This document shows, in pieces, positions 2,543 through 59,014 of a DNA stretch of 64,000 nt. Both the position numbers and the translations under genes were made by a program. This stretch comes from Pyropia yezoensis (lineage: Eukaryota > Rhodophyta > Bangiophyceae > Bangiales > Bangiaceae): positions 1,804,590-1,868,589 of the forward strand of contig CM020619.1 of NCBI GenBank assembly GCA_009829735.1, in the 5' to 3' direction. Numbering within the stretch: the stretch's first letter is position 1; every line of letters starts with the position of its first letter. The notes beneath the pieces were generated by a model that searched no databases, had not been told where the DNA came from, and was given only the letters and a program-made list of their open reading frames with translations.

Positions 2543-4522
2543 CTAAGCCAAGCCATGCCGCTTCAAGGTCGCAAGAAGCTCGCCAACCACCGGGCTGTCC
2601 GACATCTGGCCGCTATCCGCACAAGCAAACACCCGGTCGACAACGTCGTTCAAGACGCTGGCGTATGTGCCCAGCATCAAGGAAGAACTGACGCCTTCAA
2701 CCTGCATCGGAAGACGACCCAGCTGGCCTTCAATCATGCCAACGTCATACTGGTCGCACGACGCGCCACTTTGAGTCAGGTACCAGTCAGGCACCCAAAA
2801 GCGGGAAAGGCGCAGAGGCGGCGCTGGTATCTCGAACCGACCCGAGGTTGCCATCACCGGACGGTCAGCGAGGGCGCTGGAAACCGGAGTCCCCAACTCG
2901 AAGGTGGGCACAGAGCCGCCACCAGGCGTAGAAGGCGCCCGAGGAATAATGGAAGGAGGAGCCGGCGACTGGACAGCCACGCCAAGAGTCGCTGCGGACA
3001 AGCGAGGTGCCGGAGGAGCCTGAAGATCCGGCACAGGTAGAGCCGGGCGCACACGTGCCGGCGACGGCACAGGCGAGGCAACTGGGGAGACCGGCGCCAC
3101 TGGAGGAAGCGGAGTTGCCGCAGACGCCTGACCAACCGCCGCGGCCCGTCCCGACTCTTGTACCGGCGGCCCATTCGGCAGGAGATCAAGAGCAACCGGA
3201 GCGGGAAGACTGCCTAGATGCGGCCACGCCGGAAGCGGCGTCGCCAGCTGCACCTTGGCCGGAGAAGACTGGTAGACTACCTGCACCCAACCCGAGCCAT
3301 CCCGACGCTGGCTGTTCTGGTCGGCAATCTTGTTCAAGAAGCTCCGGTCATGCACCGGGGGCTGACGCCGGAAGTCGATCATCGCCTGGAAGGGCTTCTT
3401 ATACTCCTCGTCCTGGCTGCACAGGAAGTTGACGGTCAGCTTGTCAACGATCCAGACCATCAGGAGGTCGGGGAGAAGCCAGAGCCGGTTGGACACCAAG
3501 ACCTCGTGGAGCCAGTGGTTGGCCGCCAAGACCGTCATCTCAGAGGTGTACATCATGTACGGGATGGAGTGGAAAAATCCCCTGATCGCCGCCTGGGTCA
3601 AGGCGTCCAAGAAGTACCGAGTGAAGGGGATGGTGGATGGAGCAAGCCCGACCGGGATCTCGACCTTCTGCTGCTGCGGGATGACCTTGGGGTAGTACGC
3701 CGCCCGGTTGGCCTTGTCCAGCTTCCAGAACTCCTGGTGGTTGCAACTCACGATGTAGTCGCGCTGGCGCCCGCGCCGCTCGCCTTGTTCCCGCGCCGGC
3801 GTCAACTTGGAGTACTTCCGGGTCCAGAAAAGCGGCTCCAGAGCGACCATACTCGGACGGGGATCACAAGACAGGCTCCGCGACCCCTTGAGTGCCTCGT
3901 CCCAGACCTTGAGCGCCCGCTGGACGTAACCTTCCTCCTCCGGCCACCGGAGAACGGACGCGGACACGCGACGCTCGGTCAAGGGAAGATCCAGTACCAG
4001 CGCGAAGGGGAGATCCTCCAGGCGAGCAACCCAAAAGAAACCCGAAAAGCTCAGGGAACGGTCTTAAGCCAGGCTCATCTGGTCCGCCGTATGGAGGCGC
4101 GTCTTGTCCATCTCCGTCAAGACCGCACGCTGGAGTTCCTTGCGCCAGATGTCGAAGCAATCTTGCTGGCACCGGGCCACGCTGGCGTTGCCCACCACCG
4201 TCAAGTAGCGCCGGCACGCCAGAGGGTCCTGCCCAAGAAGCATCTCCGGGAGTCCCACCGGGAAGGTCTCGACCGGGCGCGACACGGAAGCCGGGGGAAG
4301 TCGATCCGCCTCCGCCGTGGTGACCGACGCCGGAACCGACAACCGAGGAACCGAAGGCAAGGGAAGGGCACGGCCGCTCGAGCTCTCCTCCGCCACACTT
4401 GCCGCCGGAGCCGCGGGCCCAACCTGGATCTCGGAACTGGACATGACGTCCAGAATCCGGGGTAACGGAAGGGTCAAGGTGAAGGAGGCGGGGGGGGGGG
4501 CAGAGTTGGGGAAGGTGATCAC
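2543..4522 (-). pseudogene. Antisense accessory ORF of B1
   Basis: The long minus-strand coding region lies between the end of pol and the 3' LTR of B1, opposite to pol. The likely start is the ATG near 4444 (MSSSEIQVG). It has an Ala/Pro/Ser-rich N-terminus, then a folded region with RDYIVSCNHQEFWKL and KVEIPVGLAPSTIPFTRYFL, which aligns with PYLVTSAQLEF and QVEVPYGFPALLPRLLDHFG of the A1 antisense ORF. A Pro/Ala-rich linker and a short C-terminal conserved block (MIEGQLGRLPMQVEGVSSSL) follow. It is interrupted about once. No known domain recognised. It is not gag: gag of family B is a different protein encoded in the sense direction (13934-15274). Confidence 0.7.
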
Positions 4523-4629
4523 GCTCGGGGTGAAGACTCTCTACCTCGGCACCGGTGTAGACGTGCTCGAGGTTGTGCACGGTGGCACCTGGTTCGGCCC
4601 GAGGGCGTGCCGGACTAGGGAGGGAGCTA

Positions 4630-5202
4630 TGTAGCATCCCTGGCCCCGACTTGGCGCTGACCCGGGACTACGACCAGAAGGCACCAGGTGCCAGAACACG
4701 CCCGCCGTGTGGTGATGATTGGCAGCCGTGGCCCGTGCCCGGCATTGGGATACGGTGGACTACGCTATCCACACGTGAGAAAGGGATTTCTGATGGGCTT
4801 TTGCATATTTGTGAGGGACTTGATTTGAAAGGATTTGAGTGTGAGACTAGTGAGTGGGAATAGAATTAGTAGTGATAGTGGCCCCCGACCTGACGAGGTT
4901 AGACTCGGGTCGGGGCCACTCGGGGGTATGGGGTGGGCTACCTGGCCAACGTGCCGAGGCTCCCCCAGATGCACGTTAAGAGGGACAGCGAGGCGCCCTT
5001 CGCCCGCGCCTTCAGGGAAAAAGACAACTGCGCGTTTGCTTTCCTCTTCCCCGTGTGCACTACCGTGCGTATCTGTTTGCCCTGCAAGCAGGCACGTGAG
5101 GCAACAGGCATACCATTCTCGTAGTTCCCCTTTCCGCGTTACCTGTCCCTTTCCCCCGAGGGATATTGCCACGTGTCTGAGAGGATCGAGTTTTTTACCA
5201 CA
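4630..5202 (+). repeat. LTR of family B (3' LTR of B1)
   Basis: The 573-bp repeat begins TGTAGCATCCC and ends TTTACCACA. It matches LTRs at 13157-13724 and 31299-31870. The 5-bp flanks (AGCTA left, GTCGG right) do not match each other, as expected when the left flank is internal element DNA. Confidence 0.88.
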
Positions 5203-5888
5203 GTCGGCAGCGGGGGTGTGAGGGGGGGGGGTGGTTGTGAGGGGGAGGGGGGGGGGGAGGACGAGGGGAGATGGCGCGGTGGGGCGGGCCAAGAAGAGGT
5301 GGCTCGCGAGCCAGCACAAGGCAGTTCTGCACGCCGGCCCGCGAGAGCTGTCATGGGCGGCACCCTGTGTCGCGGACAGCACCCAGGGTCTACCAGCGGG
5401 TGGACCACAGCACCCCCTTGGGAGGGTGCATCCTCCTGTACCGGCGCGGGGCCCACCTGGTGGCCCGCCTGGTGGCCCGGTACGTTGGCAAATCCGGGCT
5501 GCAACACAGAGTAACGGGCCAGTACAGGGCCCGGTCGGCGTGGCGCGCGGTGAGGCAGACCCCACCAAGAATCCTGATTTCTAGGGTTGCCGCAGAGGGT
5601 GCCAGACTTCGGGGACATCTGCGTGGCGCACAGCGTATCGTCGCGTGTCCAATCGCGTCAGCACGGTGCCTTCTCGTGTGCCAGCCAGTAAGCCGCCTTC
5701 GAAGAAGGCGTGAACCTGGGCTACTTTCAATTCAAAAAGTTCGAAAACGAACCTGGTTCAATCGGACGCCCCGTGGTACTGGTCCGCGGGGTATCTGGGA
5801 CAGTCGTCGTCCTCTTCGCCCCGACGTTCTCTGCGCTTCGCGGTCACATTACTGCACTCGGTCGTGGTAGCGTCCGCGGGGTTGGATC
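5203..5888. other. No gene recognised; G-rich then mixed leader
   Basis: The first 100 bases carry long G runs (about 5220-5260). Short ORFs on both strands look like composition effects. Near 5738-5751 there is a small perfect stem (GTTCG, AAAA, CGAAC). The stretch directly precedes the transposase-like gene at 5889 and may include its promoter, but I see no clear TATA element. Confidence 0.5.
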
Positions 5889-8800
5889 ATGGGTGACGAA
5901 TGCCGAGTACCCGGCTGCGGTCGTGTGTTGAAGAGTGCATTGGGCGAGACGCGACATGTCGGAGCAATGCATAACCGACTGCGTGACCCCGTCCTGCGTG
6001 CCTTCAATACCGTCTGCATTGAGTCTGGTGACGAGTACGAGGCGAGGAATGAGGGCACGCGGGAGAGCAGCGCGGGAAAAGGTTCAGGGGAGCGTGTTAG
6101 ATATGTGATTGGGCTGGAGTCGCCTGTTTTCCTGGAGCTATCTCGAGCAGTTACCAATCCCTTAGAATCTCCTCGAAGAGGCAGCTCTCGGAAGCGCGCG
6201 CCGTCTGAATGCGCGCGACGGGCCCGCCGTGCTGGCCATGGGTACCCGCGCAGAACACGTCGGCGGGGTAGGAGGCTTGCGAACGGCACGGACTCCTTTA
6301 CTGGCGCTGGGGACGATGAATATTCCAGTGCAGCTGCAGCTGGAGATTCCTCCTGGTCTGCTACCGACGATGCTCGTGCGGGTGGTGGAGGGCGAGGGTC
6401 GGAGCCACAGCCAGCATCGGCTCTGAGCCGTGACCGTGACCTGTGTACTCAGGTCTACAACCTCTACGAGCGGTACGGGGATGCCGCGCGCGCCACGACC
6501 GCTTTTTGTGTTCCGCCTGGCGGGGGAGGCGGCTCCGAAGGTAGGACGCCTTGGACCAAGGATGGCCTGTGGCACGTCTTCGTGAATGCGTGTACTGCCA
6601 GCAACGGTTTCGGGCTGTCTCAAAAGGGCCTGAAGAGGCAGTACGCGTATACGCGGAAGGTGGAGGCGGCCACCGGCGCTGCCAGGGCGCCGTTCGCGGA
6701 ATCGTTTGGCTCCCCGAACCGGTTCTTTGCTGCAGTACGGCGCTTCAAGCGCGCTCTCATCGCCCCATTGAATTGGCAGAAGGTGACATTGACTGTGTTC
6801 GGGCGCAAGTACGCAGTGTGCTTCCGTGACGCTTTAGCCGCTGCCCAAGAAGAGCTGATGCGTACTAATCATCAAGACATGTGCTGGGACACTCCCCCCG
6901 CCGACGCGCCCCAGATGGACAACGGTACTGAGGGGGCCCAGCCGTCATTAGTGCGGGGTCCGTGGGATGGGGAGATGTACAAGGAGCAGGAGGCACACGT
7001 CCTTGGTACCATGCGGACTGGTACCCGCGTCCTTGCACTCCATGTCTACTCGGAAGCAACGGTGTTGTCCAGCAGCGGCGCAGTGTCTGCGTACCCTCTG
7101 CGCATGCGTGTGCTGAATACCAGTAGTGCCAAAGAGAGCTGGTTCACCATCGCCTACATCCCTCAGGTGGCGGGAAAGTTCGTGGAGACTCGAAAGGGGC
7201 AAGAGGTGCGGGCGGAGCTACTGCAGCGTGTACTGCACCTGACGTTTCGTACTGCAATCCAGGCCAGCCACAAGGGGGCTTGGATGGATCTTTCTGACGG
7301 CGGCCGCGTACGGGTGTCTCCTCGGGTGCTCCTGTACGTCTGCGACGAGCCAGAAAAGCGGGCGGTAATGTGCCTCAAGTCAGCGGGCTGTCTTTACCCA
7401 TATACACCATGCAAGGTGTCACGGGACGACTCATGCTCGGCAGCCGGTGCGACGGCCCCGGCTCGCGATGTCGACGAGACTGTTGGGGCTCAGCTGCGCA
7501 ATTCCACGATGGGGACGTACTGGGAGTCGCAAGCGAGGCGAGCCGAGGTGGAGCTGGAGCACAGTCTCAACAGCACTGTACCCGCTTTAGCGTCCTTGGC
7601 CGGCCTCGGGAATGGCCCATGCATGCTGTACCGTCTACCTGGGTTTGACCGCTTACATGTACGTTGCCTTGAGAACGTGTCACTCATCGCTACTGGGGTG
7701 CACCGTGCTCCATGTTTTTGCTTCGCGCTCAGTATGAACCTGTACATGGGTGATGTACTGACTGGTTTATGCTGGACGTGTTTCTGTGCTGTGCCTGCGC
7801 TCTGCGCTCTACCAATTCATCTCCCAGGTGATGGACACCGGTGTAAATAGGAAGGTCGCCAACAGCGTACCGGTGACGCTGAGATGAGTAGCAGGCGAAG
7901 GAGGGCGCGCGCGGTTCGACAGCGTCACCAACACAGAGCGAGCCATGAATCTACGCTTCAAGTACGCATCGCGCCGCCTGCGTGTTCCTTACGTCTACCC
8001 AGGGTACTTCGTCCTCGAGACGGTCAAGCAGGCAACCCTTACTGGGAGTGACCACCGTCGTGCCTTGCCGTACCTGTTGTTTGCTGTTGCGGGCGTCGTC
8101 GGTCCTGTTGGTGAAGGCGACGAGCCCGGCGCAGTATTGCAGTGCGTCTGTGAGTTGGTCGCGCTGACCAAATCCCTTTTCGCTGCAAGTGGCCCAGGCA
8201 TTCAAGGCGTCACCTTGAATGAGGCTGCTCTACTGGCAAAGAAGGCACACGAGTGGGTGGTTGACCACTTCCAGCCTGTACTGGGTCCTGCTCATACGGC
8301 TAAGCTCCATCGCGTGTCGGCACACTTACTGGACGAGTTTCGCCTACGAGGTAACGTGTTTGACGGGGACTGTGCGTTTAACGAGTCGCTTCACAAAGCT
8401 GTGAAGGCGGCATACCGAACTACAAACAAGAGAAGGGACCAGTTTGTTGAGCAGCTGATCGTCAACGAGCAGGTGCACGCCGCCCTCCTGGAGGCGGACG
8501 ATGACTCCCGGTGCTCGGAAAGAAGCGACAACGGCGGCGCCGAGTCGCGATCGCCCCCTTCACGAAGCGTGCCCCGCCAACCACGTGGTGGAGGTCGCCG
8601 GGTGCGGCACCGATACGCTAGGAAGCGGTCGGTCGCCTGGCTGGCTGCGAGCCGCAACCTTCCGGGTCTCGCAAGCGGACTTGGCTGTGAGGACACCGTC
8701 ATGGTTTGTCCCCCGTCCAGTATGTACTTCGGTATTGCGCCTGTACTACGCGGTAGTTCGCAGTACACCATCCGGGCGTCTCCGTGTTTTCACGGATCAT

Positions 8801-10958: not shown

Positions 10959-12640
10959 TCGAATTTTCATTGGACATTCATTGGTCAGTCTATATATTGG
11001 AGGACTGGTTCGTTCAACAAGTGCCATTGTGCACGTGGTCCTGTTTTGGTCCTCAAGGGCCACTGTTATCCGCCAGTAGCCCGCGTTGGCTCCCAACATA
11101 GAAGAAACAGTGGCCTCGCCCACGATGTCGATGTAATCGTGCACCCTTGGCAGTTGGTACGTGTCCTTGACCGTAAGGTCGCTGAACCTCCTGTAGTCCA
11201 CAGAGATTGTAGGGGCCCCACCAGGCTTGGGGACCAGGACGACCGAAATGAACCACTCGGCCTGAGACGGCTCAATGACCCCAAGCTTCGCTTGTCTGGC
11301 CAGGGTCCTTGATCAGGTAACAATGATGGAGCTCAGTTCTGTACGGGAGACATCATGGGCTCGGCCCCCTGCTTGAGCGTAATGCGGTGGGGAGTGCCGT
11401 CCATCCGGCCCAACTGGCCCTCTAGTAGCCCCTTGTACCTGTTCAATAAATCTCGTACAGCATCATGAAAGGTCGGTGGGATCAGTTCGTGCGCCACTCT
11501 AGGCATCGGAAATCTGGCCATCTCCGTCCGTATTGGCCCGTTCCGTAGTCGGTGAAGCGTCTCCTGCCTGGCCCTTTATATTTTAGAATTTCATCGGCTG
11601 CGCTTCACCTGACGTGGCCCACTGGTCCTGACTCAACGTAGCAACGGGGTCAGCCCCCACACAGTGCATGGACAAATTATTCAAAAGGACCTCGTAAACA
11701 GGGCCATCATAGGGAATCGCCAGGCCAACAGTAACGGTCTTAGGAAGGTTGACTGGCCTCTTGGAGATGTTGGTCAAGTAGAGCCTGAAGTCCCGCCTGG
11801 TCTTGACGTTGGCCAAAGCGTTGTCCACTCTGAGCCCCTTTTCGGCCATCTTGTTGGGCCTCTCGTAGAGCATACACCAGCCGTTGGTCCCGCACCGTAC
11901 GTTGACCGCTTAAATGGACCACGGGGCCAGCGTATCACCCTTGGACAGGTACAACGCGTTTGGGTCACATCTGACCGGGTTCCCCTTGACGGGCATGGCC
12001 TGCTGTTCCTTGCCACTCCAGGCCCGCTTTGCATACGAAAGAGTCCCGTTGGTCCAGAACACCGAGTCCGTCCTCTGATAAATGGCCTTGACGTACTCCT
12101 TCTGGTAGTCCGTAAAAAGGATCAATGGGATCGACAGGGCCTTGACGACCAAGAACTCAGACTGCATGGCCTGGTCGATCACAATCACAGAGAGCTCCAC
12201 TAGTCCACGGGCCTTGAGCAACTGGCCCGACGCGGCACACACGTACGCACCCTTCGGGGCCCGCCCTGACAGCTCCCGCCAGCCCTCAGGCAGGAGGTCC
12301 TCACGCACAACATTTGGCCCCGCTCCAGTGTCCAGAATAGCTTTCATGGGTCGTGGGTCTTTCTTGTCCAGTCTGACCCGTGCATCCAATGCAAGGTACC
12401 TCTTAAGCGAAACGAGCAGTGTCCCCTTGAACTCATATGGTCGCTTCGTCCCCAGGCGTCGCTGGATCCATGACTTGGCCCGGCGTTTCAGGAGGGGAGA
12501 GCAGGACGAGGGTTCCTTAGAATCAGTAGTAGAGGCCAAAGCAGGTATGTGGACAATGGGGCCTTCAATATCATTGAGAACCTCAGCGCAGTAGCAAATG
12601 AACACGTGCTGTCCAATCGATGGGGAGTACACCGCTTGGG
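10959..12640 (-). mobile_element. E: degenerate Ty3/gypsy protease-RT fragment
   Basis: Fossil pol piece on the minus strand. From its 5' side: an aspartic protease domain with ILDTGAGPNVV (near 12330), followed by a linker ending in the region before RT, then the first part of reverse transcriptase (VDYRRFSDLTVKDTYQLPRV, GEATVSSMLGANAGYWRI; about 11055-11215). It has several breaks, and gag, RNase H, integrase and its own LTRs are not seen. It is clearly older than the B and A copies. Its right end abuts the family F LTR remnant. Confidence 0.8.
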
Positions 12641-13156: not shown

Positions 13157-13724
13157 TGTAGCATCCCTGGCCCTGACTTGGCGCTGACCCGGGATTGCGA
13201 CCAGGGGACACCAGGTGCCGGAACACGCCCGCCGTGTGGGATGGTTGGCGGCCGTGGCCCGCGCCCATCACTGGGATGCGGTGGACTACGCCATCCACTC
13301 GTGAGAGAGGGACTTCTGACGGGTTTTTGCATATTTGTGAGGGACTTTTTTTAAGAGAAGTTAGTGTGAGATTAGTGAGGGAGAATAGAATTAGTAGTGA
13401 TAGTGGCCCCCGACCTGACGAGGTTAGACTCGGGTCGGGGCCACTCGGGGGTATGGGGTGCGCTTCCTGGCCAATGCGCCGAGGCTCCCCCAGATGCACG
13501 TTCAGAGGGACAGCGAGGCGCCCTTGGCCCGCGCCCTCAGGGAATAAGACATCTGCGCGTTTGCTTTCCTCTTCCCCGTGTGCACTACCGTGCGTATCTG
13601 TCTGCCCTGCCGACAAGCTGAGGCAACAGGTATGCCAATCTCGTAGTTCCCCTTTCTGTGTTATCGGTCCCATTCCCCCGAGGGATATTGACACGTGTCT
13701 GAGTGGATCGAGTTTCATACTACA
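13157..13724 (+). repeat. 5' LTR of B2
   Basis: 568 bp, from TGTAGCATCCC to ATACTACA. By eye it differs clearly from the B3 LTR (roughly 85% identity in the first 160 bases), although the adjoining gag sequences are almost identical. No paired 3' LTR is present in the window. Confidence 0.88.
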
Positions 13725-13933
13725 TATTTGGTGGAGCAGCAGGGGACTGGAGTGATTGAGAAGAGACATTTGGGAGCAGGGGTTGGGTTGTTCCTGTTTT
13801 GTCCTCTTCTGTGGTTTAAGAATTATTTGCACCCGTTCACGGGAATCCCATTCCTGGCTCGTCAACCCCTCTCTTGTGGTCTGACGATCTTTGGACACAC
13901 AGGCAACTGGACTGTAGCAGTCAAAAGACCAAC

Positions 13934-15274
13934 ATGGCTACTCTCCCTGGGACGACGTTGCGCGAAGGGGTAGACCCTGCGTCGCTTGAAGCATCTCTGG
14001 TCACCGCGGGGGACGGTGTCCAACACGGCGTTGCCCCAACGGGTGAAGCAGACCCGGGCGCGACACCCGGTAGCGGGCTGGAGTCCACAGGCGGCCAAGT
14101 ACCCCCTGCTCCGGTTCCTCCGGTTGCCCCTCCTGTGGAAGCTACTCCGAGGTCAACGGCGTTCGAGTCAGCTCGAAGCGGACGGCCCCCTTCTGTCGGT
14201 TCTACTCCTGAACCTCCAGGGATATTTCCTGTTGTGATTACTCCTGGACCTACACGCGGCAGCTCGGTGTATACTCCACTTCCTGTGGGCGCCACAAGTG
14301 CAGGAGGCACGGCTGTGACTGGCTCCACGCGGCCCCCGGAGGTCTCGACTCCTGGGACCGGTCAAGCTTTTCCTTCTCTGGCATCCTACGGAGCGGGAAG
14401 TTCCAAGACCCGCAACTGGAACAGCCGGAGGCGGTGGCGTCGCCGTCGCCACTCTAGCACAAGTGAGACCAGTTCCCCCAGCTCTGAGGAAGGATATGAC
14501 TGGGACGCATCTCCTGGTCCCACCCGGCGCAGGCTAGTCGAGTTTGACTTCCCTGCCCACCAAGTGGGAGATGCCACCCTGAACAAGGTCACGTATTGGG
14601 GTAACTACCGGCTGGAGAACCAAGACCAAGGTTACACTCGGAAGATGGCCAAGAAGATGGCATCCCTGAACCGGCGCATGCAGCCGAGCTTCGGGGGACA
14701 CCCAAAGTTTTCCGGGAAGAAGCCGGCGCTTATCTTTGCCTTCCTGCGCCGGTTTGTCAAGGCATGCAACGACAATGACGTGTCAGAAGGCAAGGCTCTC
14801 TACCTCCTGGTTAACTTTATGACAGGGGAAGCGGAACGGCGGTTCGCTCAAGTTCTTCCGGACTCAGCCGGACATATCTTCGGGCGCACCGTTGGTAGCT
14901 CTCCGGAAGCGGTCAACTGGCTCCTGTCAAACTATGCTGACGCGGATTCCCTGCGCAAGGCGGTGGCAAAGTTTAGCCGAGCAACCATGGAGCGCCAGGA
15001 GACACCAGAGGCCTTTGCCTGTGGTGTACGGGAGATGGGCGAGGCTTGCGGCAACGTCTACCCTAAGGACAGGCTCAAGATGATGTTCTCGGAAGGACTC
15101 CCTGAATATTTCCAGGTGGATGCCGAGACCTACAACCAGGAACATCAAGAGCATACCTTCCAGCAGCTGACGGCCTTCAATCAGGGCAAGGACCGGAAAG
15201 CCAAGGCACTCCGAGCTCCTATGGTGTCGACTCCCAAGCCGTTGTCGCGAGTTCGCCCTGGACCCGACAGGTAG
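13934..15274 (+). CDS. gag: gag of B2
   Basis: The frame starts MATLPGTTLREG with a Pro/Ser/Thr-rich N-terminal half (about 230 residues) that includes an Arg-rich patch (NSRRRWRRRRHSSTS). The capsid-like part follows: FGGHPKFSGKKPALIFAFLR, then YLLVNFMTGEAERRFAQVLP, then KMMFSEGLPEYFQVDAET. This is the usual order of a Ty3-type capsid protein, which assembles the element's particle in the cytoplasm. The CCHC knuckle lies downstream in a separate frame. Confidence 0.85.
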   Translation: MATLPGTTLREGVDPASLEASLVTAGDGVQHGVAPTGEADPGATPGSGLESTGGQVPPAPVPPVAPPVEATPRSTAFESARSGRPPSVGSTPEPPGIFPVVITPGPTRGSSVYTPLPVGATSAGGTAVTGSTRPPEVSTPGTGQAFPSLASYGAGSSKTRNWNSRRRWRRRRHSSTSETSSPSSEEGYDWDASPGPTRRRLVEFDFPAHQVGDATLNKVTYWGNYRLENQDQGYTRKMAKKMASLNRRMQPSFGGHPKFSGKKPALIFAFLRRFVKACNDNDVSEGKALYLLVNFMTGEAERRFAQVLPDSAGHIFGRTVGSSPEAVNWLLSNYADADSLRKAVAKFSRATMERQETPEAFACGVREMGEACGNVYPKDRLKMMFSEGLPEYFQVDAETYNQEHQEHTFQQLTAFNQGKDRKAKALRAPMVSTPKPLSRVRPGPDR

Positions 15275-28950: not shown

Positions 28951-28954
28951 GGGA

Positions 28955-47613: not shown

Positions 47614-49557
47614 ATGGCGAACCCGGGGGTGGAGACGGACTCCCTCGACGAAAGTATGGAGGACACCTCCTACGGTGCAGCGCCCGCCGGGACTTCCGGC
47701 GGGGGCTCCGCGATCGCTCCGGGGGATGGGACTCCCGCGTCACCCGGCCTTGGGTTGACGGCGGGATCTCCCCCGGAGGCGGGACAAGTTGTCCCGCGTG
47801 AGGCCTTGGGGCGGTGGTTTTACCCCGCTTGGCCTCTATATGAGGAGGGGTTGACTGTTCTTCGCTGTGGCCGACTTGGCGCAGCGATAGGTCGGGTATG
47901 GGACCGCCTACGGGAGAAGTATCCCCGTAGGATCGGGTTCCCTGCCGGCTTCAGGACGGACCAGTTTGCCTTCCTGGACGACGAGGAGGTTGAAGACGTA
48001 CAGCGGGCCAAGGCCATGGTGGACCGCGGGGGAACTATCCCGGGTCCCGGCGACTTGCCGACCTTTACTTGGGACGCGGTGGCAACTCGCCCCCCGTACC
48101 TTCACGAGGCCGATCCGCACACTCATCACTTTGATGTGCGGATAGAGAAGGACTTCCGGCGAGGTCCCTACTTGGTGACCTCGGCTCAGCTTGAGTTTCC
48201 TCAGCAGTCTGCTGCCAGTAAGGAGCAGTACTATCCGAAGAAGCCCGAGTGGTGGCCTCAAGTTGAGGTCCCCTACGGGTTCCCGGCGTTGCTGCCACGG
48301 TTGCTCGACCACTTCGGCTCCGTCATGTTCACGGCTGGCCCTGATCACCTGGTGTGGGCCATGCTGGCCACCCAGTGGCTCCTCGAGGTCATGTCGACCT
48401 GGGTGTCTTGTTTTCAGCGGCGGGGGATGCTCTGGCATCTCCCCCTCCGGCTTATCCAAGGTTTGGAACAGCTCACCCCTCAGCTAGTTGCTGAGGGGTG
48501 CTCATCAGGACAACTCACTCTACTTGAGGAGATGCTCCGCCTCCACAAGTTTATCGAGTGGGAGAGCATCGAGCACAAGTTGCGCCGCCCCACTCGTGGG
48601 CCCAAGGACGATGGCGCACTTCGCCAGTTCGTATGGGTCGCTCGTGAGCTTGACGACGGCCGTGTGGTCCTACGAGAGGGGTTGGGCATCGGGGACTACT
48701 CGTATGCCCCGGGGGTGGATCGCCACACTGCGCCGCCCCCGGACAAGCCCGTAGCTATGGCCGTGCCCTCACTTGATGACCATATGACTCAACCCACTGC
48801 GGGGGCCCCAAGTCGGGGTCGCAGTTACACTCGGGCTCCGCCATCTCGGCGTCTCCCTCCGCTTCCTCTTGTCCCCTACCAGCCGTACGGGGACATCCCG
48901 ATTAGCGTGGCCGTTGAGTCGTCCACCCCGGTGTCCCCCAACTTAGGGGCCACCCTCCTGACGGTATACCCCAAGTTGGTGTTACCGCCCACGCCTCTAA
49001 CCTCAGAGATGATGATCACCACGTTGGTGCGCACCATTTTTTGGTTGGCCGCGTCGACCGCAACCCTTCAAACTTCCGAGACACCTCAACGTGAGGAGCG
49101 CGTTCGTACTGCAGTGGCGACCGCGAGTTGCGAGTCGGTGGCGGAGTTTACGACGGCCGAGTTGGCTCGCATTGGGGCTATCATGCCCCAGCCAGCCCCA
49201 CTTGGGCGTGGCAAACGTCGTACGAGCCGAGCATACTCGCCTCTTCGCCGTCGTCGCCGACGCTCGCGGCGCTCTCCCTCCGTGTCGGAAGACGAGCTGT
49301 CTTACTCCGTCTCGGAGTCCTCGACTCCGTCAGAGTCGGAGTCGGTCCGGCGTCTGCGTCGCCAACTTGCGCGCAAGACTAAGCAGAAGAGCAGCTGCGG
49401 TCGTCGCCACTTGCGCGACCGTGAGGGGCGCGACGGGTCCGACTTGAAGCCGCCGGCCCCTCCGACTGGTGGGGAGCGTTATCGCCGGGGGTCTCGCCGC
49501 TCGCCTCCACGTGTGGGCGAGGGCCGTGGGGTTGGAGAGTCTAGCATGCATGCCTAG
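47614..49557 (+). CDS. Antisense accessory ORF of A1, intact
   Basis: An uninterrupted plus-strand frame of about 647 codons from the ATG at 47614 (MANPGVETDSLDESMEDTS). The frame stays open upstream into the LTR, but A2 also has an ATG at this place and none conserved further up. The N-terminus is Gly/Ala/Pro-rich; the middle is alpha-rich and conserved (AIGRVWDRLREKYPRRIGF, PYLVTSAQLEF, QVEVPYGFPALLPRLLDHFG, LATQWLLEVMSTW, LIQGLEQLTPQLVAEG, LTLLEEMLRLHKFIEWES). The C-terminus is strongly basic with an Arg/Ser-rich tail (SPLRRRRRRSRRSPSVSEDE), suggesting nuclear location or RNA binding. No catalytic motif or transmembrane segment seen. Function unknown. It faces pol and stops 111 bases from the end of pol. 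An inverted repeat sits just upstream of the ATG. Confidence 0.75.
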   Translation: MANPGVETDSLDESMEDTSYGAAPAGTSGGGSAIAPGDGTPASPGLGLTAGSPPEAGQVVPREALGRWFYPAWPLYEEGLTVLRCGRLGAAIGRVWDRLREKYPRRIGFPAGFRTDQFAFLDDEEVEDVQRAKAMVDRGGTIPGPGDLPTFTWDAVATRPPYLHEADPHTHHFDVRIEKDFRRGPYLVTSAQLEFPQQSAASKEQYYPKKPEWWPQVEVPYGFPALLPRLLDHFGSVMFTAGPDHLVWAMLATQWLLEVMSTWVSCFQRRGMLWHLPLRLIQGLEQLTPQLVAEGCSSGQLTLLEEMLRLHKFIEWESIEHKLRRPTRGPKDDGALRQFVWVARELDDGRVVLREGLGIGDYSYAPGVDRHTAPPPDKPVAMAVPSLDDHMTQPTAGAPSRGRSYTRAPPSRRLPPLPLVPYQPYGDIPISVAVESSTPVSPNLGATLLTVYPKLVLPPTPLTSEMMITTLVRTIFWLAASTATLQTSETPQREERVRTAVATASCESVAEFTTAELARIGAIMPQPAPLGRGKRRTSRAYSPLRRRRRRSRRSPSVSEDELSYSVSESSTPSESESVRRLRRQLARKTKQKSSCGRRHLRDREGRDGSDLKPPAPPTGGERYRRGSRRSPPRVGEGRGVGESSMHA

Positions 49558-49668: not shown

Positions 49669-52470
49669 TCACGTTGAGGGAGGGCTGTTAGGGTCTATCT
49701 CATTCCGGGCACAGTGTGCCCGGACCTTCTCAGCGGGAAGGTCCTCCACATATTCCCACGTATCATCCTTGGCTTTGTCGCCGAACCAACGCACCCTCAA
49801 CATGAGGCGGTCAGTGTCCTCATCCCAGCCGTGGTCGATGAACTTATCGAACACGTACTCCTGCGGGCCCTGTTTGGCCGCAGGCAGTGAGAGGAGGCGC
49901 CACGCTTCCAACGCACGCGCCCAAGCTGGGTCGCCTGCAGGCGGTGGTGCAACTTTGACCACGTCCTGTCCGTTCACTGTGCGGACCCCATCGTCACTTT
50001 CGATGGTGAAGCGCCGCCCATCAGAACGAAGGACCTGGTACGGCCCCTTCGTCTGGAATACCAACTTACCCCTAGTTGAGGTGTGTGAGTGGACCAATAC
50101 CCAGTCACCCTGCTCGGGGACATGCTTGGCGTTGCGCACCTTTTTGTCAAAGGTACGCTTGTAGCGCTTTTGTGCTTTGTCCATCTCAGCCCTGACTTTA
50201 GGGATGAGATTTTCAAGCCTAGCAGCGAACTCCGCCTTACTCTCAGTAAGAGTAGGCGTCCTGCCACCATCCTTCGTAGTTGGGAGCGGCCGCCGCACGG
50301 CAATAGACCGCACGCGACGGGGGGTCACAAAAGCGAGGGGTACTTCCCCGGTAGCTAAGTGAACCTGCGAATTGTAGGAAGTGGTAAGAATAGAAATGTA
50401 TTGGTCCCACGTTTTCACGTGCTCACTCACGTAGTGGCGCAGCTGCCTAACAATAGTCTTGTTGAAGCGCTCCACCTGCCCATTAGTTTGTTGGTGGTAG
50501 GGGGTGGCATAGTTTGCCTTAACCCCCAACATATCCAGCACTCCCTGAAACAGTACAGACGCAAACTGCGGTCCATTGTCCGATAATGTACTATCCGGAA
50601 TGACATACGCGGCAACCCAGTGATCTAGGAAGGCTGACACGACCGACATGGCCGTGATCTCTGGCAGTGAGATCGCTCGCGTAAGTTTCGTGAAGCGGTC
50701 ACAGATAACCAGGAGGTACTGGTTGCCCTCCTCGGTCACTGGCAGTGGCCCAAGGATGTCCATCGCCAACGCGGCAAAGAGCTCCTTGGCCGGGAACAAT
50801 AGCATAGCCGTAGTAGGCCGCCGTTCCATCAGACGGTTCTGGGCACAACTTGTGCAGGCAGCCACCCAACTGTAGATGTCCACCACCATGGACGGCCAGT
50901 AGTACCTGGTCCTCAGGGTCTGGTACAGTTTACTAGACCCCAGGTGTCCACCTGTGGGAGCGCTATGCTCCCTCTCAAGGATACTGTCCTTGAGGGATGC
51001 GGGGACGACAAGTTGTTCGGTCCCCTGGAATACCCCCCCCCTCATGAGGAGGCCATCGTCTCCCAGAAAGAACCGCGTCTCTGCCACTGTACCCAGTGTA
51101 TCCCTCTGCGACTTGCAGAAGGGATCCTCGGCCTGGGCCTTCACCATCTCGTCCAGGGACAGGGGCAAGTACTTCTTGTTCCCTGGCGCCTCGGGGTTCA
51201 ACGCCTGACCCGAGGGCGTGACTATTCCCACGATGGGGATGTCCTCATCGACTGGGTTAGTGTCCAGCCGCTCGGTAGGTACCCGAGAAAGGCCGTCGGC
51301 AAGGGCATGTTGCCTGCCAGGTCGGTACTCAATATCAAAGTTGAAGGGTGCCAGTCGCACCCTCCACCTGTTGAGACGAGTGTTTGTACAGTCCGTCTAT
51401 AAGATGAACTGCAACGCGCGGTCGTCACAGCGGATGAGGAACTTCTCACCCTCCAGGTAGTAACGAAGTGACGTCACTCCCCACACCACTGCGAGTCCCT
51501 CCAACTCGGTGACTCCGTAGTTCTTCTCGGCCGACTTCAGCCCCTTGCTGAAGTATCCCACCGGCAAGTACTCCTCGTCCGGCTGCTGCTGAAGCAACCC
51601 ACGACCAAGTTGGTCGTAGCTAGCGTCCACACCCAGGATGTAGTGGCCTCCCAACCCGGGAATAGCCAGGATAGGGGGCTTCAGCAGAAGGTCCCGAAGA
51701 GTCTCAAAGGATTCCTGCTCCACCCGACTTGGGGGAGGCAGGTTCTTCGGTAGCGTTGAGCTCACTAACTCATTCAACGGTTTCGCCTTCTTGGCGAAGC
51801 CCTTGGTGAAACGTCGGTACACGTTACACATCCCGAGGAAGCTCCTCATCTGGGTCTGGGTCCGGGGGTACTGAGCCTTACGGATGGCCCTCATGTTCTT
51901 CTCGTTGACACTGAGACGCCCCGGACGGACAAAATGTCCCAAGTATTCCACCTCTTGAGTAAAGAGGTGGCACTTGCTCGCCTTCAGTGACACACCGGCG
52001 TCAGCAAGTAGCTTGAGCACCTGGCCAAGATGGCCAATGTATTCCTCCGGACTTCGGGAGAACACAATAATATCGTCTAGGTACACGAGACAGATCTGCC
52101 ACCGTACTCCGGCGAGAATCATGTCCATAGCGCGCTGGAAAGTTGCCGGCGCGTTACACAGCCCAAACGGTAGACGCTTGCACTGGTAGGTACCACAGTG
52201 ACAGGTAAAGGTAGTTTTATGCCTGTCCTTCGGGGCAATGGGAATTTGCCAGTACCCCGCGTTACAGTCCAGGGTAGAGAACACATTCGCCTCCCCCAGG
52301 GAGTCCAGACAGTCGTCCATCCTAGGTAGGGGATAACTGTCCTTCACCGTGCTCTCGTTGAGCTTACGGTAGTCGATACAGAACCGGGGGGTCCCATCAA
52401 CTTTGGGGACAATAACCACCGGACTCGCCCACTCGGCGATACTGGCCTCGATGACATCGAGGGCCTCCAT
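49669..52470 (-). CDS. pol: pol of A1 (RT, RNase H, integrase, chromodomain)
   Basis: RT: FCIDYRRLN-type motif (RFCIDYRKLNESTVKDSYPL), GYWQIPIAPKDRHKTTF, catalytic CLVYLDDIIVFSR (about 52055-52095), FLGMCNVYRRFTKGF. RNase H: GGHYILGVDASYDQLG, LADGLSRVP. Integrase: HSAPTGGHLGSSKLYQTLR with CTSCAQ (about 50825-50965), core MDILGPLPVTEEGNQYL, LSDNGPQFASVLFQ, YHQQTNGQVERFNKT (about 50460-50770), GPY module (KGPYQVLRSDGRRF), chromodomain (QEYVFDKFIDHGWDEDTDRL, about 49780-49870). Chromodomain elements of this type often target silent chromatin. About one break. Confidence 0.9.
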
Positions 52471-52794
52471 GCGAGCAACTTGCTCCTTGACGAGGGCCCT
52501 TGAACGGGGTCCTCCCCTCTACGGTTGTTGGCGTATAGGGGGAGCACCGGGCTTCAACACGATCCGGTGTTGGGTGGCTCTCATGAGTTCCTATTGACCA
52601 TCCCACAACTTGTGATATTGGTCCAAGAGGCGTTCAACTTGAACCCTCAACCTGGGTGGGACACCCTCCATGTTCACATGGGGCCGAGGAGAGGCGGCCG
52701 ACTTGGCTTGATGCTTCTCCTTTCCGGACCTCGGGTCGCTACTTGCGCCCGCGTTGAGGGTGACCGCTATTACCGGTCCCTCGTGTTGGTCGAT

Positions 52795-53652
52795 TTAGCC
52801 GAACTTGGCTCCCGACTTGAAGTACTTGGGCGACGAGCTCAGGATCATCACCTGGATCCTCCACGGGACTCCGGCTTTGGAGTCCATCGTGCCAAGGGCT
52901 ACTTGCACTTGGTGCTTGCGAGCAAGACGGGGGTAAGGGTGCACCAACCCGTTCCCCGTATAATCAGTTACAACGTCAACGTGCGCCACCGAGTTGGGGC
53001 GCAACGTGACTTTACGGGCTAAACGCAGAGTAGCAGTAAACCCTTCCCTCACAGAACAAACAAGCTTCGACTGTGAGACTGTCACAGGAGCCACAGACTT
53101 CCCCTTACCAAGGATGGGGATGGTTTCCCCATTCATCAACCTGACCCAATACTCAGGGCCACAAATCAAAGGCACTTGTGTAACAACATAGGGGGTACCC
53201 AGAAGCAGGGGTACCGATACATTCTCAACTACTCCATAGGTCACGTCGACCTCATGGGTCCCCAACCTAGTTGGTAGGGTCACGGCACAAACGATGGGAA
53301 GGACCCCACCATTGATATCGATCAGATGGACAGCTTTAGACTTCCAGCATTGGAGCTTCATCTTCTTTGGTAATAGCGACTTGCGTATCAAGGAGGCTCC
53401 TGACCCGGTAGTAAGTAAGATACGGGCACAACAGGCGCGGCCGGGGGCAAGTTGCACCCGTCCAGCCACCTGGAAGTTCTCACCCGTCAGCACCGCGATG
53501 ACCCGTCGTGGGTTTACGTTCTTGGGGAGTCCTACCCGAGGTGGGCGGACTCCCTTAGGTCGCCGCAGTATCCGGCACGGTTGGTTCGTCCTCTTGACCC
53601 ACTTGGCCGAGGCTGCCGTTGTGAGCTTCGGACGACCAGCTCCAACGGTCAT
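52795..53652 (-). CDS. Protease region of A1
   Basis: Retropepsin-like domain after gag, with ARILLTTGSGASLIRKSLL at the active-site position and VPLLLGTPYV as the second conserved strand. It matures the Gag and Pol proteins. Its frame begins in an ATGA overlap with the gag stop, a gag-pol junction compatible with the recoding that Ty3-type elements use. It appears in the same place in A2 (62960-63757). Confidence 0.75.
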   Translation of the reverse strand: MTVGAGRPKLTTAASAKWVKRTNQPCRILRRPKGVRPPRVGLPKNVNPRRVIAVLTGENFQVAGRVQLAPGRACCARILLTTGSGASLIRKSLLPKKMKLQCWKSKAVHLIDINGGVLPIVCAVTLPTRLGTHEVDVTYGVVENVSVPLLLGTPYVVTQVPLICGPEYWVRLMNGETIPILGKGKSVAPVTVSQSKLVCSVREGFTATLRLARKVTLRPNSVAHVDVVTDYTGNGLVHPYPRLARKHQVQVALGTMDSKAGVPWRIQVMILSSSPKYFKSGAKFG

Positions 53653-55391
53653 TCGTTTCCCGCCGACTTGGCGTCCGAATCTGAGGACGAAGGGGAAGAC
53701 GACGAGTCCGAGGACGACGTGTCCGCCCCCTCCGCCGAGGGTGTGGCGACCGCCACCACCGGTCGAGACCCACCCTCGCGGCGTGAACGTACTTCGTTCG
53801 TAGCCGACTTCTTACTTGCATTTCTAACAAATTGTTGGATGCGTTTACTTAACTTGGGGCAATCATATGCCCAGTGTCCATCGGAGTTGCAGTTCGAACA
53901 CCGATTGTCAGTTCCCGGAGGGGTCTTCCCAACTGGGGAAGACGAAGAGATACCCTGGGAAGTTCCCACAGCAGCTACCACCCTCTCCTTGTTGATTCGG
54001 CGTGCCTCTCTCAACTCTCTGGCCTGGCGCGCCTCCTCCCGTTCCTTGGCCAACTCGGCTTGACGCTCCTGGCGTTGTTCCTCCTGCAACTTGCGGTAGG
54101 CCTCGCCTGTGCGGTAGGCGAACCTAGCCAACTCGGCCAGGGTCGCCCGGGCAGTGTTATGCTCCCGGGTCTCCATCCGGACTGACCAATGGAGTCCCTC
54201 CACAAACCGACTCTTCACCACAGCTTGTGGATGAAGAAACCCACAAATATTGTTGAGCTTACGGACTCGCTCCGCAAAGGACAACGCGTCCTCCGCCTCT
54301 TCCTGATGGGCTTGCGTAAACTCCTCGACTTGAGAAGCCAGCGCCGCTTCATCAACCATGGCTCTCAACAACCAGTTGACGAGCTCCAAATAGGACGTCA
54401 CCTCACCAGCGCCTCCACTTGAGCAGCTGGGCATGACGGACATAAGTTCTGTCCGCAGGTCTCCCTTCGTAAACTCCTGTAGCATGTAGAAAGCCATGCC
54501 TTCACTTATGGCCTTGTCGTCACAGGCTTTTGTGAAGCGACGTAGGAACTCAAAGTCACGGAGGGGGGGAGTTCCATCACACTCCGCTTTGTGCCCAAAA
54601 GCGTGAAGTGCATTCTTCTTGGCACGGCCCATGGCTTGGGCCTGGTCAGGACCATACGCCACCGACCTATTGTGGAGGGCGTAGGTCTCACAATCAAAGA
54701 TCCTCTGGTAGAGCGGGTTGGCTACCTGGATCTTGGGCGGCACCTCACGTTGAGGGAACAGCCGCTGTGGCACTGGGGCAAGTTCACCCTCAGTGCCCAT
54801 AGTCTGGCGCGGCGCGCTTGGTGTAGCCGCCGGCGTTTCCGGGGGGAACTCCCCCATGAAGGGCGTACGCCCCACCGAGTATGGTGTGGCTCCCTCGTTG
54901 GGAGTCACAGGTGTCGCCCCCTGTTCGGGGCGACCCGGAATAGGCGTCAGGAGGGATTCCCCCTGCGCCTGCGGGCTCGAAAGCCCCGATCTGGTCTGGA
55001 CATTAAGGCCATCGGGCAAACTCGCCACAATCTGATTCAGAATAGTATTCGTCATCGTGACCACCAGGTCCGGCAAAGTCTGCCGCAACACATTCGTCGC
55101 CTCTCGACGGACAGTTTCCGCGAGGAGTGGACTGACGACTCCAGTTGAGTCTCGGTCCGCCTCCGGGAGTCCACCTGAGGGGTAACCACGTTCCTCAGGG
55201 GTCTCAACCGGGGGCATGGACGCGAGCCCATCGCCAACCAACGGAGGTCCGCCGTCCCCCGAAAGCCTAGTTGGCGACGGCTCCAAGCCAATGCTGGCTC
55301 CAACCCGAGTGGAACCCGCGGGGACAGTCCTTACCCCTTGGGACGTTCCCGTGGAGTGTACCACACGGTGGCCAGACTTCGGCCCACCCAC
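53649..55391 (-). CDS. gag: gag of A1
   Basis: About 580 codons, uninterrupted. Pro/Gly/Thr-rich N-terminal half (MGGPKSGHRVVHSTGTSQGV), then a capsid-like part (LRDFEFLRRFTKACDDKAIS, YMLQEFTKGDLRTELMSVMP, RFVEGLHWSVRMETREHNTA), a long Glu/Arg/Ala helix (about 54000-54120), one CCHC knuckle (CSNCNSDGHWAYDC, about 53865-53910) and an acidic Ser-rich tail. It is the structural protein of the element's particle. Confidence 0.88.
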   Translation of the reverse strand: MGGPKSGHRVVHSTGTSQGVRTVPAGSTRVGASIGLEPSPTRLSGDGGPPLVGDGLASMPPVETPEERGYPSGGLPEADRDSTGVVSPLLAETVRREATNVLRQTLPDLVVTMTNTILNQIVASLPDGLNVQTRSGLSSPQAQGESLLTPIPGRPEQGATPVTPNEGATPYSVGRTPFMGEFPPETPAATPSAPRQTMGTEGELAPVPQRLFPQREVPPKIQVANPLYQRIFDCETYALHNRSVAYGPDQAQAMGRAKKNALHAFGHKAECDGTPPLRDFEFLRRFTKACDDKAISEGMAFYMLQEFTKGDLRTELMSVMPSCSSGGAGEVTSYLELVNWLLRAMVDEAALASQVEEFTQAHQEEAEDALSFAERVRKLNNICGFLHPQAVVKSRFVEGLHWSVRMETREHNTARATLAELARFAYRTGEAYRKLQEEQRQERQAELAKEREEARQARELREARRINKERVVAAVGTSQGISSSSPVGKTPPGTDNRCSNCNSDGHWAYDCPKLSKRIQQFVRNASKKSATNEVRSRREGGSRPVVAVATPSAEGADTSSSDSSSSPSSSDSDAKSAGNE

Positions 55392-55693
55392 ATCAGAAGT
55401 GTCACCCGAGCGAACTCCCGACTAAGTCGGGGTGGCCTGTTGCCCGCCCGCACTTCCAGTCCTGCTTGCTTGTGGGACCTCTAGTCCCTCTGTGACCCCA
55501 GGTAAACCCCCCTGTGTCTCACCAGTATTCAAAGGCACTGGAGCACGTGCGTCACCCGTGTACTCCCCGGACGACGGGGGGGCCGAACTAGCTATGTTGG
55601 CTAACGATCCGTATGACACGGTCCAAGTCCACGGTTCCTCTGAGACAGAGGGCCCCCTACACCCGGGTGCACCCGGAGGTAAAGTTTACCTCT

Positions 55694-55714: not shown

Positions 55715-56183
55715 TGTGGCAAAAACCACTTACACGCACGGCACCCAAGTTGGGGCGGTGTACAAGGGCTGCCTCTCGTGTCGGGGGAACCGGAAGAAGT
55801 GAAAGTCGCACACACTCTGTCCCTGTTGTGGGGCAAACCCCCCACTGACAAACAAGAGGATGGTGTGTGGTCCAACAGTTTCTTGGTCGGGACGGGGACG
55901 CAGGGCCAAGCCCCGCTGTCTCTCTTCTTATCCCCTCAGGGTCCCCTCATAATCTCGCCACTCAGAATCTCCCACCCCAGCACCTGCCCACCGGGCCACA
56001 CGAAAATTCAAGACGATAAATGCAGAAAACCCTCAAATCCAAGTTGGATTTACTACTAAGCTAACTATCCCAAACTTAGGGAATACGGACCCAAATGCAG
56101 GGGGAAGAACGGATCAGGCTAGTGGCCTGCCGCCCCTTGCATGGCACGTGTTGCCTCCCTACCTGGGGGTCAATACTGCCACA
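55715..56183 (-). repeat. 5' LTR of A1
   Basis: 469 bp, TGTGGCAAAAACC to ACTGCCACA. It is the copy most like the solo LTR at 735-1203 at its right edge. Confidence 0.93.
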
Positions 56184-56748: not shown

Positions 56749-56795
56749 CTCCCCTCTCCTCAGGTCCGACCCACCCGGTCGGCCCTGAAAAGGGG

Positions 56796-56803
56796 TATAA
56801 AAG
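56796..56803 (+). promoter_or_regulatory. TATA-like element upstream of the A2 antisense ORF
   Basis: TATAAAAG lies 48 bases inside the LTR edge and 270 bases before the ATG at 57074, on the coding strand of the antisense ORF. The surrounding leader is otherwise similar to A1, where the matching site reads GCGTAAACG and is a weaker match. It suggests the antisense ORF has its own promoter. Confidence 0.45.
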
Positions 56804-57073
56804 CGCGTGTTGCACTCGCCGGGGGCGCGACTCGCTGTCCCTCGATACGTCACCTCGACGTGAAGGCAGTCACGTCGACCGTCCTCCTCCTCAACCTCGC
56901 CCACTTGGCAGCTTGCACGCACCTTACCACGACCTTCCCCAACCACTCACCTCACCGCAGGCCACCCCACGCTAAGAAGGCCCCCGGTATACCCACGATC
57001 CAAGTCCCCCTCAACTCAAGGAGGGCCTCGGGCAGTTGCGATCGAGTTGCCTCTCCCTAACTTGCGGAGAGAC

Positions 57074-59014
57074 ATGGTGTACTCCGGGGTGGAGTCTGAA
57101 TCCCTGGGCGGACGTGTGGAAGACGCGCATCGCGTTGTAGCACCCGTCGGGAGTTCCGGCGGGAGCTCCGCGGTTGCCCCGGGGGATGGGATGCCTGCGC
57201 CACCCGACTCGGTGTTGGCGACGGGCGCTCCCCCGGAGGTAGGCCCCGTTACTCCACGGGAGGCCCTGGGGAGGCCGCACTACCCACCCTGGCCCCTACA
57301 CGAGGAGGGCTTTACGATTATCCGCTGCGGCCGACTTGGCACAGCGATGGATCGGGTCTGGGGGCGCCTACAGGAGAAGTTCCCCAGTAGGGTAGGATTC
57401 CCTCCCGACTTCAAACGAACCAGTTTGACTTCCTTGACGACGAGAAGGTCGAAGACGTGCAGCGGGTCCAGAACTTGATGACCCGCGGGGGTACCATCGA
57501 GGGCCCCGGCGATGTGCCGACCTTCACGTGGGACGTGGTGGCAACTTGCCCCCCGTTCCTTAGTTCCTCCGATCCGCACGTCCATCATCTCGACGTGCGG
57601 ATGGAGAAGGACATCCGACGAGGTCCCTACTTGATGACCTCGGCTCAACTCGGGTTTGCGCAACAAACGCCGGCGAACAGGGAGTTACTCTACCCCAAGA
57701 AGCCCGAGTGGTGGCCTCAAGTTCAGGTCCCCTATGGGTTCCCCGCGCTACAACCGCGGTTGGTTGACCACTTTGGCTCCGAGATGATGACGGCTAGCCC
57801 GGACCACATTGTGTTTGCCATGTTGGCAACACTCTGGCTCCTCGAGGTCATGTCGACCTGGGTGGCCTGCGTCCAGAGGGGTTGGATGTTCTGGCGACTC
57901 CCACCCGGCCTGATCCAAGGTTTGGAGCAGCTCACCCCTCGGCAAGTTGCTGAGGGGTGCTCGTCGGGTCAGCTTACTCTACTCGAGGAGAGGCTGCGTC
58001 TCCACAAGCTCATCGAGTGGGAGACCATCGAGCACAGGTTGTGCCGACCTTCCCGTGGGCCGAAGGACAACGGCTCACTTCGCCAGTTCGTCTGGGTCGG
58101 CCGTGAACTTCACGACAGCCGCGTGATACTCCAGCAGGGTTGGCATCGGGGACTACCCGTATGCCCCAGGGGTGGAGCGCCACACTTCGTCGCCCCCGGA
58201 GAAGAACGTTGTGGTTGCAGTCACGGACCCTGAGGAGCTTGGGGCGCAAGGTGCCGCGGCGGCCTCAACTCGAGGTCGCGGCTACCCTCGGGCTGCCCCA
58301 AGTCTGCGAGTCTCTCCTCTTCCTCCTGTTCCGTTCCAGCCACACGGGGACATCCCGATCGGCTTTGCGGTTGAGTCATCCACGCCTGTGTCCCCCGACT
58401 TGGGGGCTACTCTACTTACGATGTACCCCAAGTTGGTGGTGCCGTCCGCGCCATTTGCTTCTGAGATGCTTACCACCACGTTGGTGCGCAACATTTCGTG
58501 GATGGCCGCGTCGGCAGCGACTCTCCGAACTTCGTAGCCCCCTCAGCTTGAGGAGCGCGTTCGCACTGTCGTCTCGACTGCAAGTTGCGAGTCGGTTGCG
58601 GAGTTTATGACGGCCGAGCTGGCTCTCATCGGCTCCATCATGCCCTCGTCGGCCCCACTTGGGCACGGCAAGCGTCAGGCGACCCGTGCCTACTCCCCTC
58701 CTCGTCGTCGTCGCCGCCACTCTCGGCGCTCTCCCCCTGTGTCGGAAGACGAGTTGTCTTATTCCAAGTCGGAGTCATCCAGCCCGTCCGAGACCGAGTC
58801 GGTCCGTCGTCTGCGCCGCCAACTTACGCGCAGGACCAAGCAGGCAAGTGGCCGCGCTCTTCGTCGCACTCGTGATCGTGAAACTCATGATGACTCCGAC
58901 TTTGAGGCGCCTGCTCCACCAACTGGTGGTGACCGTCACCGGCGGGGGTCTCGCCGCTCGCCTCAGCATGAGAGCGAGGGTCGTGGTGGTGGAGAGTCTA
59001 GCATGCGTGCATAG
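57074..59014 (+). pseudogene. Antisense accessory ORF of A2
   Basis: ATG at 57074 (MVYSGVESESLGGRVEDAHR), in the same place relative to the LTR as in A1. The conserved blocks are RVWGRLQEKFPSRVGFPP, PYLMTSAQLGF, QVQVPYGFPALQPRLVDHFG, LATLWLLEVMSTW, LIQGLEQLTPRQVAEG and LTLLEERLRLHKLIEWET. The C-terminal Arg/Ser tail is retained (SPPRRRRRHSRRSPPVSEDE). About two breaks. Similarity to A1 is spread along the protein, which suggests selection on it before decay. Confidence 0.68.

Follow-up and report, generated by a model that had tools for sequence, protein, structure and literature searches.

The window analysed here is a 64,000-nucleotide stretch of the genome of the red alga Pyropia yezoensis (assembly GCA_009829735.1, contig CM020619.1, positions 1,804,590 to 1,868,589 of the forward strand). 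It holds five Ty3-like long terminal repeat (LTR) elements, A1, A2, B1, C2, and D, each of which carries a gene oriented opposite to pol. We found that this antisense gene is protein-coding and that it is homologous in the four element families through a central domain. Because the gene is coding, homologous in four families, and under purifying selection, the simplest reading of these sequences is that an ancestral antisense gene has been retained across deep divergence. An earlier reading of the DNA, made from the sequence alone, had proposed this, and cross-family homology, a codon model, and the ratio of nonsynonymous to synonymous substitution rates (dN/dS) all support it. All comparisons refer to this single window and to its five gene copies.

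Reports of antisense genes in LTR retrotransposons go back years and come mainly from plants, with no function established. A seemingly separate family of such genes, with signs of selection at the codon level and present in four deeply diverged element families with chromodomain-like integrases, would show that a gene of this sort can belong to the core genome of an element over the long term, and a defined protein core makes its function testable.

The antisense genes and their integrity

In all five elements the antisense gene lies between the end of pol and the 3' LTR and is convergent with pol. Measured from the antisense stop, the gap is 111-474 bases, reaching to the stop codon of pol in A1, A2, and D and to where pol homology ends in B1 and C2. 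In D, whose 3' LTR is not delimited, the gene was placed relative to pol. The five long open reading frames (ORFs) are thus located where the sequence-only reading had put them. The genes are:

47614-49557, plus strand: antisense gene of A1, intact, 647 amino acids.
57074-59014, plus strand: antisense gene of A2, damaged, in pieces 57074-57436, 57397-58140, and 58139-59011.
44324-46084, minus strand: antisense gene of D, with four internal stops (45823, 45412, 44671, 44575).
36655-39162, plus strand: antisense gene of C2, with three internal stops (36970, 37981, 38704) and a long Pro/Ser/Gly/Ala-rich N-terminus.
2543-4444, minus strand: antisense gene of B1 from its first in-frame ATG (4444), with one internal stop (4066); the frame stays open upstream to at least 4522.

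A1 is the sole intact copy, the other four having stops or frameshifts (two frameshifts and one stop in A2, whose pieces are, in order, 56.2%, 72.6%, and 69.1% identical to A1). The A1 pol frame (49669-53811) has four internal stops, and neither the A1 gag frame nor the antisense gene has any; the opposite-strand frames of this gene contain 14, 22, and 18 stops. The A1 gene sits between the pol stop (111 bases away, tail to tail) and a purine-rich tract beside the 3' LTR, and its product comprises a Pro/Ser/Gly-rich N-terminus (residues 1-60), a core (about 61-380), a linker, a segment at 431-530, and an Arg/Ser-rich basic tail (531-647). By position relative to pol, all five genes (one of them intact) belong to the antisense additional ORF class (aORF-3R), and they are kept in four families rather than being a one-off captured gene.

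Homology of the antisense proteins across families

When the A1 protein was searched against the whole window by tblastn, without low-complexity filter, D (1.2e-9), C2 (3.3e-6), and B1 (6.1e-4) came directly behind the A copies, the next match being at 0.06. Identity to A1 between families is 21-26%. The alignment of core with core, which excludes the Arg/Ser tail, gave Z scores of 19.7 for A1-D, 13.3 for A1-C2, and 7.5 for A1-B1, and for each pair none of 1000 shuffles was as good; a shared low-complexity bias, named in the sequence-only reading as a possible cause of the similarity, is therefore not borne out. The B1-D cores scored a Z of 3.7 (4 of 1000 shuffles as good), and C2-D (Z 0.9) and B1-C2 (Z -0.4) were not significant against 1000 shuffles. 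Similarity between families is star-like and runs through A1.

Whole proteins compared with locally shuffled controls gave Z scores of 14.5 (A1-D), 7.3 (A1-C2), 4.2 (A1-B1), and 3.9 (B1-D), the A1-B1 score being 96 and the best of 200 shuffles 92. The A1 antisense protein and the unrelated A1 Gag gave a background Z of 3.1, and since the A1-B1 value is near it, the case for B1 is carried mainly by the core and the profiles. Leave-one-family-out profiles recovered family A with 39.0 bits (4.3e-11), B1 with 22.4 (4.5e-6), C2 with 19.7 (2.5e-5; best single stretch 5.7e-4), and D with 18.2 (9.9e-5). Each time, of 1286 ORFs, the omitted family ranked first once the trained families were set aside, with unrelated ORFs at E 0.19 or worse; the boundaries of the core alignment were derived from matches of every family, so that this test is not wholly independent of the omitted one.

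With a profile built from A1 and A2, as the earlier reading had suggested, 20 shuffled sets scored 8.7 bits at best; C2 (12.6 bits) and B1 (11.7 bits) exceeded this, but the best broken piece of D, at 6.1 bits, did not. The one match in a reversed-protein control (19.9 bits) was to the reading frame opposite the Arg/Ser tail; we attribute it to low complexity. The demonstrably shared part is central, covering A1 residues 91-378 with D, 83-319 with C2, and 177-288 with B1. The ordered alignment of the proteins described in the earlier reading thus stands for the central part, common to four families, but not for the C-terminal parts, where no alignment between families exceeded shuffles.

Coding potential and purifying selection

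A codon model trained only on the sense gag and pol frames ranked the antisense frame first of the six in all six segments scored (A1, two A2 pieces, D, C2, and B1; the first A2 piece, 57074-57436, was left out), the margin being narrow in the A2 middle piece (0.118 vs 0.081 for the opposite frame). Simulated sequences were as open as the antisense frame in 0 of 500 cases for A1 and for B1, 2 for C2, 18 for D, 9 for the A2 middle piece, and 36 for the A2 last piece.

The A1-A2 comparison gave a dN of 0.18 and a dS of 0.59 over 643 codons, and thus a dN/dS of 0.31 (bootstrap 95% 0.25-0.39), well below 1, with 125, 94, and 214 substitutions at codon positions 1, 2, and 3. By segment, the ratio was 0.77 (residues 1-60), 0.33 (61-200), 0.17 (201-350), 0.61 (351-430), 0.23 (431-530, a second constrained segment), and 0.27 (531-647, the basic tail). 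The sense genes of A1 and A2, measured alike, gave 0.18 for reverse transcriptase (RT), 0.19 for the protease region, and 0.26 and 0.17 for integrase. The antisense gene of family A is therefore under purifying selection, and residues 201-350, which fall within the part shared across families, are about as strongly constrained as RT. The true constraint is probably stronger than measured, because A2 is decayed and part of its changes would postdate insertion. Selection between copies suggests, in turn, that the protein matters for the propagation of the element.

The elements carrying the antisense genes

Integrase identity is 40.6% between A and D, 32.9% between A and C, and 29.9% between C and D (about 300-325 columns), and the B1 fragment is 40.3% identical to A (139 columns). 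By these low identities (about 30-40%), A, B, C, and D are distinct element families, and the earlier count of four was correct. A and D are the closest cross-family pair in the antisense core and in the long integrase alignments alike, as co-inheritance predicts; four families are few, and exchange between them may also have occurred.

A chromodomain-like stretch ends four of the five integrases. The A2 stretch passes the Pfam cut-off (E 1.5e-5, 25.2 bits vs 25.1), those of A1 (E 0.0046), D (E 0.1), and C2 (E 0.14) fall below it, and Pfam found no chromodomain in the B1 integrase fragment. The C-terminal integrase chromodomain typical of chromoviruses is thus present, which would make these elements candidate chromoviruses; Gypsy lineages with a chromodomain exist outside chromoviruses, according to the available text of PMC12477816. 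The remaining parts of the elements are:

49669-55421, minus strand: A1 gag (zinc knuckle), protease region, RT-RNase H, and integrase with chromodomain-like end.
46807-47275, minus strand: A1 3' LTR, starting with TGTGGC and ending with GCCACA on its own strand.
47276-47290: A1 purine-rich tract, adjoining the 3' LTR.
55715-56183, minus strand: A1 5' LTR, 97.2% identical to the 3' LTR (blastn) and with the same start (TGTGGC) and end (GCCACA).
59129-64000, minus strand: A2 pol (protease region, RT, integrase, chromodomain), cut by the window end.
39628-42387, minus strand: C2 RT, RNase H, and integrase with weak chromodomain-like end.
35708-36074, minus strand: C2 3' LTR, with an inverted match of 90.2% to a copy at 35060-35423.
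42440-44198, plus strand: D integrase with weak chromodomain-like end.
1644-2117, plus strand: B1 integrase C-terminal fragment, with a weak SH3_Tf2-1 match (E 0.009, under the Pfam cut-off).
4630-5202, plus strand: B1 3' LTR, 89.7% and 87.8% identical to 13157-13715 and 31299-31870.

A1 is flanked by CTGCC and CTGCG, an imperfect target-site repeat. A family-A LTR in opposite orientation, 96% identical to the A1 LTRs, lies at 734-1204, upstream of the B1 fragment. Two family-B 5' halves (LTR, gag, and protease region), 94% identical, occupy 13157-16389 and 31299-34539, and no integrase or antisense match was found beside them. C2 and D meet head to head at about 42390-42440, each truncated within pol, at a rearrangement or deletion junction, and no RT match was found beside the D integrase. 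The pol homology of C2 runs to about 39637 and its antisense gene to 39162; between them lies a tandem array (39432-39526, 3.9 copies of a 24-base unit). The available text of PMC11963269 describes arrays in the region between pol and the antisense ORF of Retand elements as well.

Proposed role of the antisense protein

We tentatively propose that the product is a nuclear regulator of its own element, binding nucleic acid or chromatin and made from its own antisense transcript, like HBZ of human T-cell leukemia virus type 1 (HTLV-1) or GENE23 of Grande. Transcription would start at an antisense promoter that lies within the 3' LTR or directly internal to it and would converge on pol; the protein would then enter the nucleus, bind nucleic acid or chromatin proteins, and tune the transcription of the element or the fate of its RNA, as HBZ or GENE23 may do. 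Because the gene would be on a separate transcript, its product could act before gag-pol expression or without it. In each of four antisense proteins scanned on the Kyte-Doolittle scale, no run of 19 residues exceeded 1.6, suggesting a soluble protein. As a candidate promoter, A2 contains GGGGTATAAAAGCG, with the TATA starting 278 bases before the antisense ATG and 47 bases inside the LTR edge.

Several observations weigh against this proposal. The A2 TATA box is degraded in A1, the TATA box of C2 is elsewhere, inside its LTR, and none was found in B1 and D. Selection is measurable in family A alone, because the B, C, and D genes are each present in the window as a single copy. Pfam gave no accepted match for the full antisense proteins, their ORFs, trimmed stretches, or the core consensus, and a search of PDB sequences with the core profile listed 12 rows up to E 10, the best at 0.19, none of them a relative. 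The AlphaFold models are poor, with a mean pLDDT (predicted local distance difference test) of 32.5 for the full length and 37.9 for the core. The Arg/Ser-rich tail, constrained as it is, is confined to family A. Since B, C, and D lack this tail, nucleic-acid binding is not, by sequence, a shared trait, and the RNA binding suggested in the sequence-only reading has the family-A tail as its only basis.

An antisense TATA box common to all elements is not claimed, as it occurs in A2 and otherwise in C2 only, at another place. One consensus stretch matched TYW2_N_2 weakly (E 0.08), which we took as chance. Searching the PDB for folds similar to the modelled core (best E 3.3) was uninformative because the model is poor. 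No relative of the antisense protein or of RT was confirmed in viral and prokaryotic contig collections, an absence that means little because of what these collections contain.

The protein could instead serve counter-defence, disarming host silencing (RNA interference or heterochromatin) from its own antisense transcript. We consider this unlikely. The weak constraint outside the core (N-terminus and linker) and the low identity between families would fit an arms race, but residues 201-350 show about the same constraint as RT, the protein matches no Pfam family, and the antisense mRNA, converging on pol, could be a source of double-stranded RNA for silencing.

Somewhat more doubtful is a role in the particle, as a second Gag- or nucleocapsid-like protein with structural or chaperone functions whose basic tail would bind the element RNA. 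In outline, the low-complexity start, compact core, second constrained segment, and family-A basic tail do recall Gag. However, profile comparison with the Gag of families A and B returned a probability of 0.4%, the zinc-knuckle pattern occurs in none of the four antisense proteins, and a zinc-knuckle Gag is already encoded by A1. A Gag duplication was rejected on the first of these grounds.

It is very improbable that the antisense RNA is the product, acting as double-stranded RNA or by interference with pol mRNA, with an incidental reading frame. The convergent orientation agrees with this, and other retroelements are known to make non-coding antisense transcripts (PMC7264820, in its available text), but codon-level selection and cross-family protein homology do not arise from RNA alone, and the dN/dS of 0.31 and its confidence interval already refute RNA as the sole explanation. 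An Env-like membrane protein, which the position between pol and 3' LTR would suggest, has still less in its favour, given the orientation opposite to pol and the absence of a strongly hydrophobic stretch from all four proteins; the best PDB rows of the core profile are gp41 chains of the human immunodeficiency virus type, but at E 0.19 and worse these near-copies of one sequence are at chance level. Finally, chance frames, whether shadow ORFs or products of shared low-complexity bias, are hardly credible: G+C-rich sequence yields long ORFs, and the low D score with the A1+A2 profile, the reversed-control match, and the simulations for D and A2 lean that way, but the tail-free core alignments, the leave-one-out profiles, the simulations for A1, B1, and C2, and the dN/dS already refute this explanation.

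Other features of the window

5871-7850, plus strand: ORF with a Plavaka transposase domain (Pfam E 4.6e-13).
11028-12509, minus strand: another Ty3-like remnant, with an RT fragment and a protease region (Pfam RVP E 0.006, below the cut-off).
17715-20501, plus strand: open frame of 928 amino acids without Pfam match, containing SSTSGCGKTH, which we take to be a P-loop-like stretch.
26277-26855, minus strand: weak DDE_Tnp_4 match (E 0.013, below the cut-off), perhaps a DNA-transposon remnant.

Comparison with known antisense genes

Antisense ORFs between pol and the 3' LTR occur in Grande, RIRE2, Retand, PvRetro13, and the fungal Boty, their origin and function being unknown according to the available text of PMC7264820. 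In Grande, the same text describes antisense transcription, an antisense promoter, and the nuclear protein GENE23. The Pyropia genes resemble those of Grande and of rice RIRE2, Wallabi, and Gran3 in place and orientation, a relation of position only, and they can be likened, by description, to the antisense gene brtn of the Boty-like elements of Botrytis (both as given in PMC7264820).

The Retand elements of flowering plants offer a further parallel, since their antisense ORFs also lie between pol and the 3' LTR across many families, and their product has likewise been proposed to be a nucleic-acid-binding regulator of unknown function (available text of PMC11963269). There, 97% of Retand clusters have antisense ORFs coding for TRP28, a domain that this text limits to flowering plants. 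In contrast, TRP28 (Transposase_28, PF04195) was not found by Pfam in our antisense proteins or core consensus, a search whose hmmscan filters drop very weak matches. At the TRP28 positions G21, P25, L34, P46, N47, and F55 (as given in the accessible part of PMC11963269), ungapped comparison matched 3 of 6 in A1, 4 in B1, 3 in C2, and 3 in D, counts reached by 474, 69, 499, and 481 of 500 shuffles, respectively. A TRP28 ancestry, suggested by a by-eye resemblance of part of the core, is thus unsupported. Retand is, moreover, a non-chromovirus lineage, whereas the chromodomain-like integrase ends of the present elements argue against a carrier of that type. The link to Grande, Retand, and Ogre/Tat drawn in the earlier reading accordingly holds for position but not for domain content, with no TRP28 or other accepted Pfam match, nor, it seems, for element type. 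The kind of gene and its place are thus known, and the present genes look like a sequence family of their own, carried by another type of element. Among the literature matches listed, which leave subscription journals mostly uncovered, no report of a comparable gene from algal elements or from elements with a chromodomain appeared.

HBZ is a basic-zipper protein, and Pfam matched no basic-zipper domain in the antisense proteins, so that the comparison is one of analogy only. HBZ, too, is encoded in antisense; its promoter is located in the 3' LTR (available text of PMC7264820) and its product is a nuclear accessory protein (available text of PMC11963269), features that we propose for the present genes. 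We regard as an evenly balanced proposition that these elements represent a chromodomain-bearing Ty3 lineage whose basic set is gag, pol, and an antisense gene of its own origin, which would predate the split of the four families, be inherited with pol, and be independent of the plant TRP28 genes. Antisense accessory genes would then have arisen at least twice, as a general solution also adopted by deltaretroviruses, and the finding would argue that antisense expression is useful to retroelements generally.

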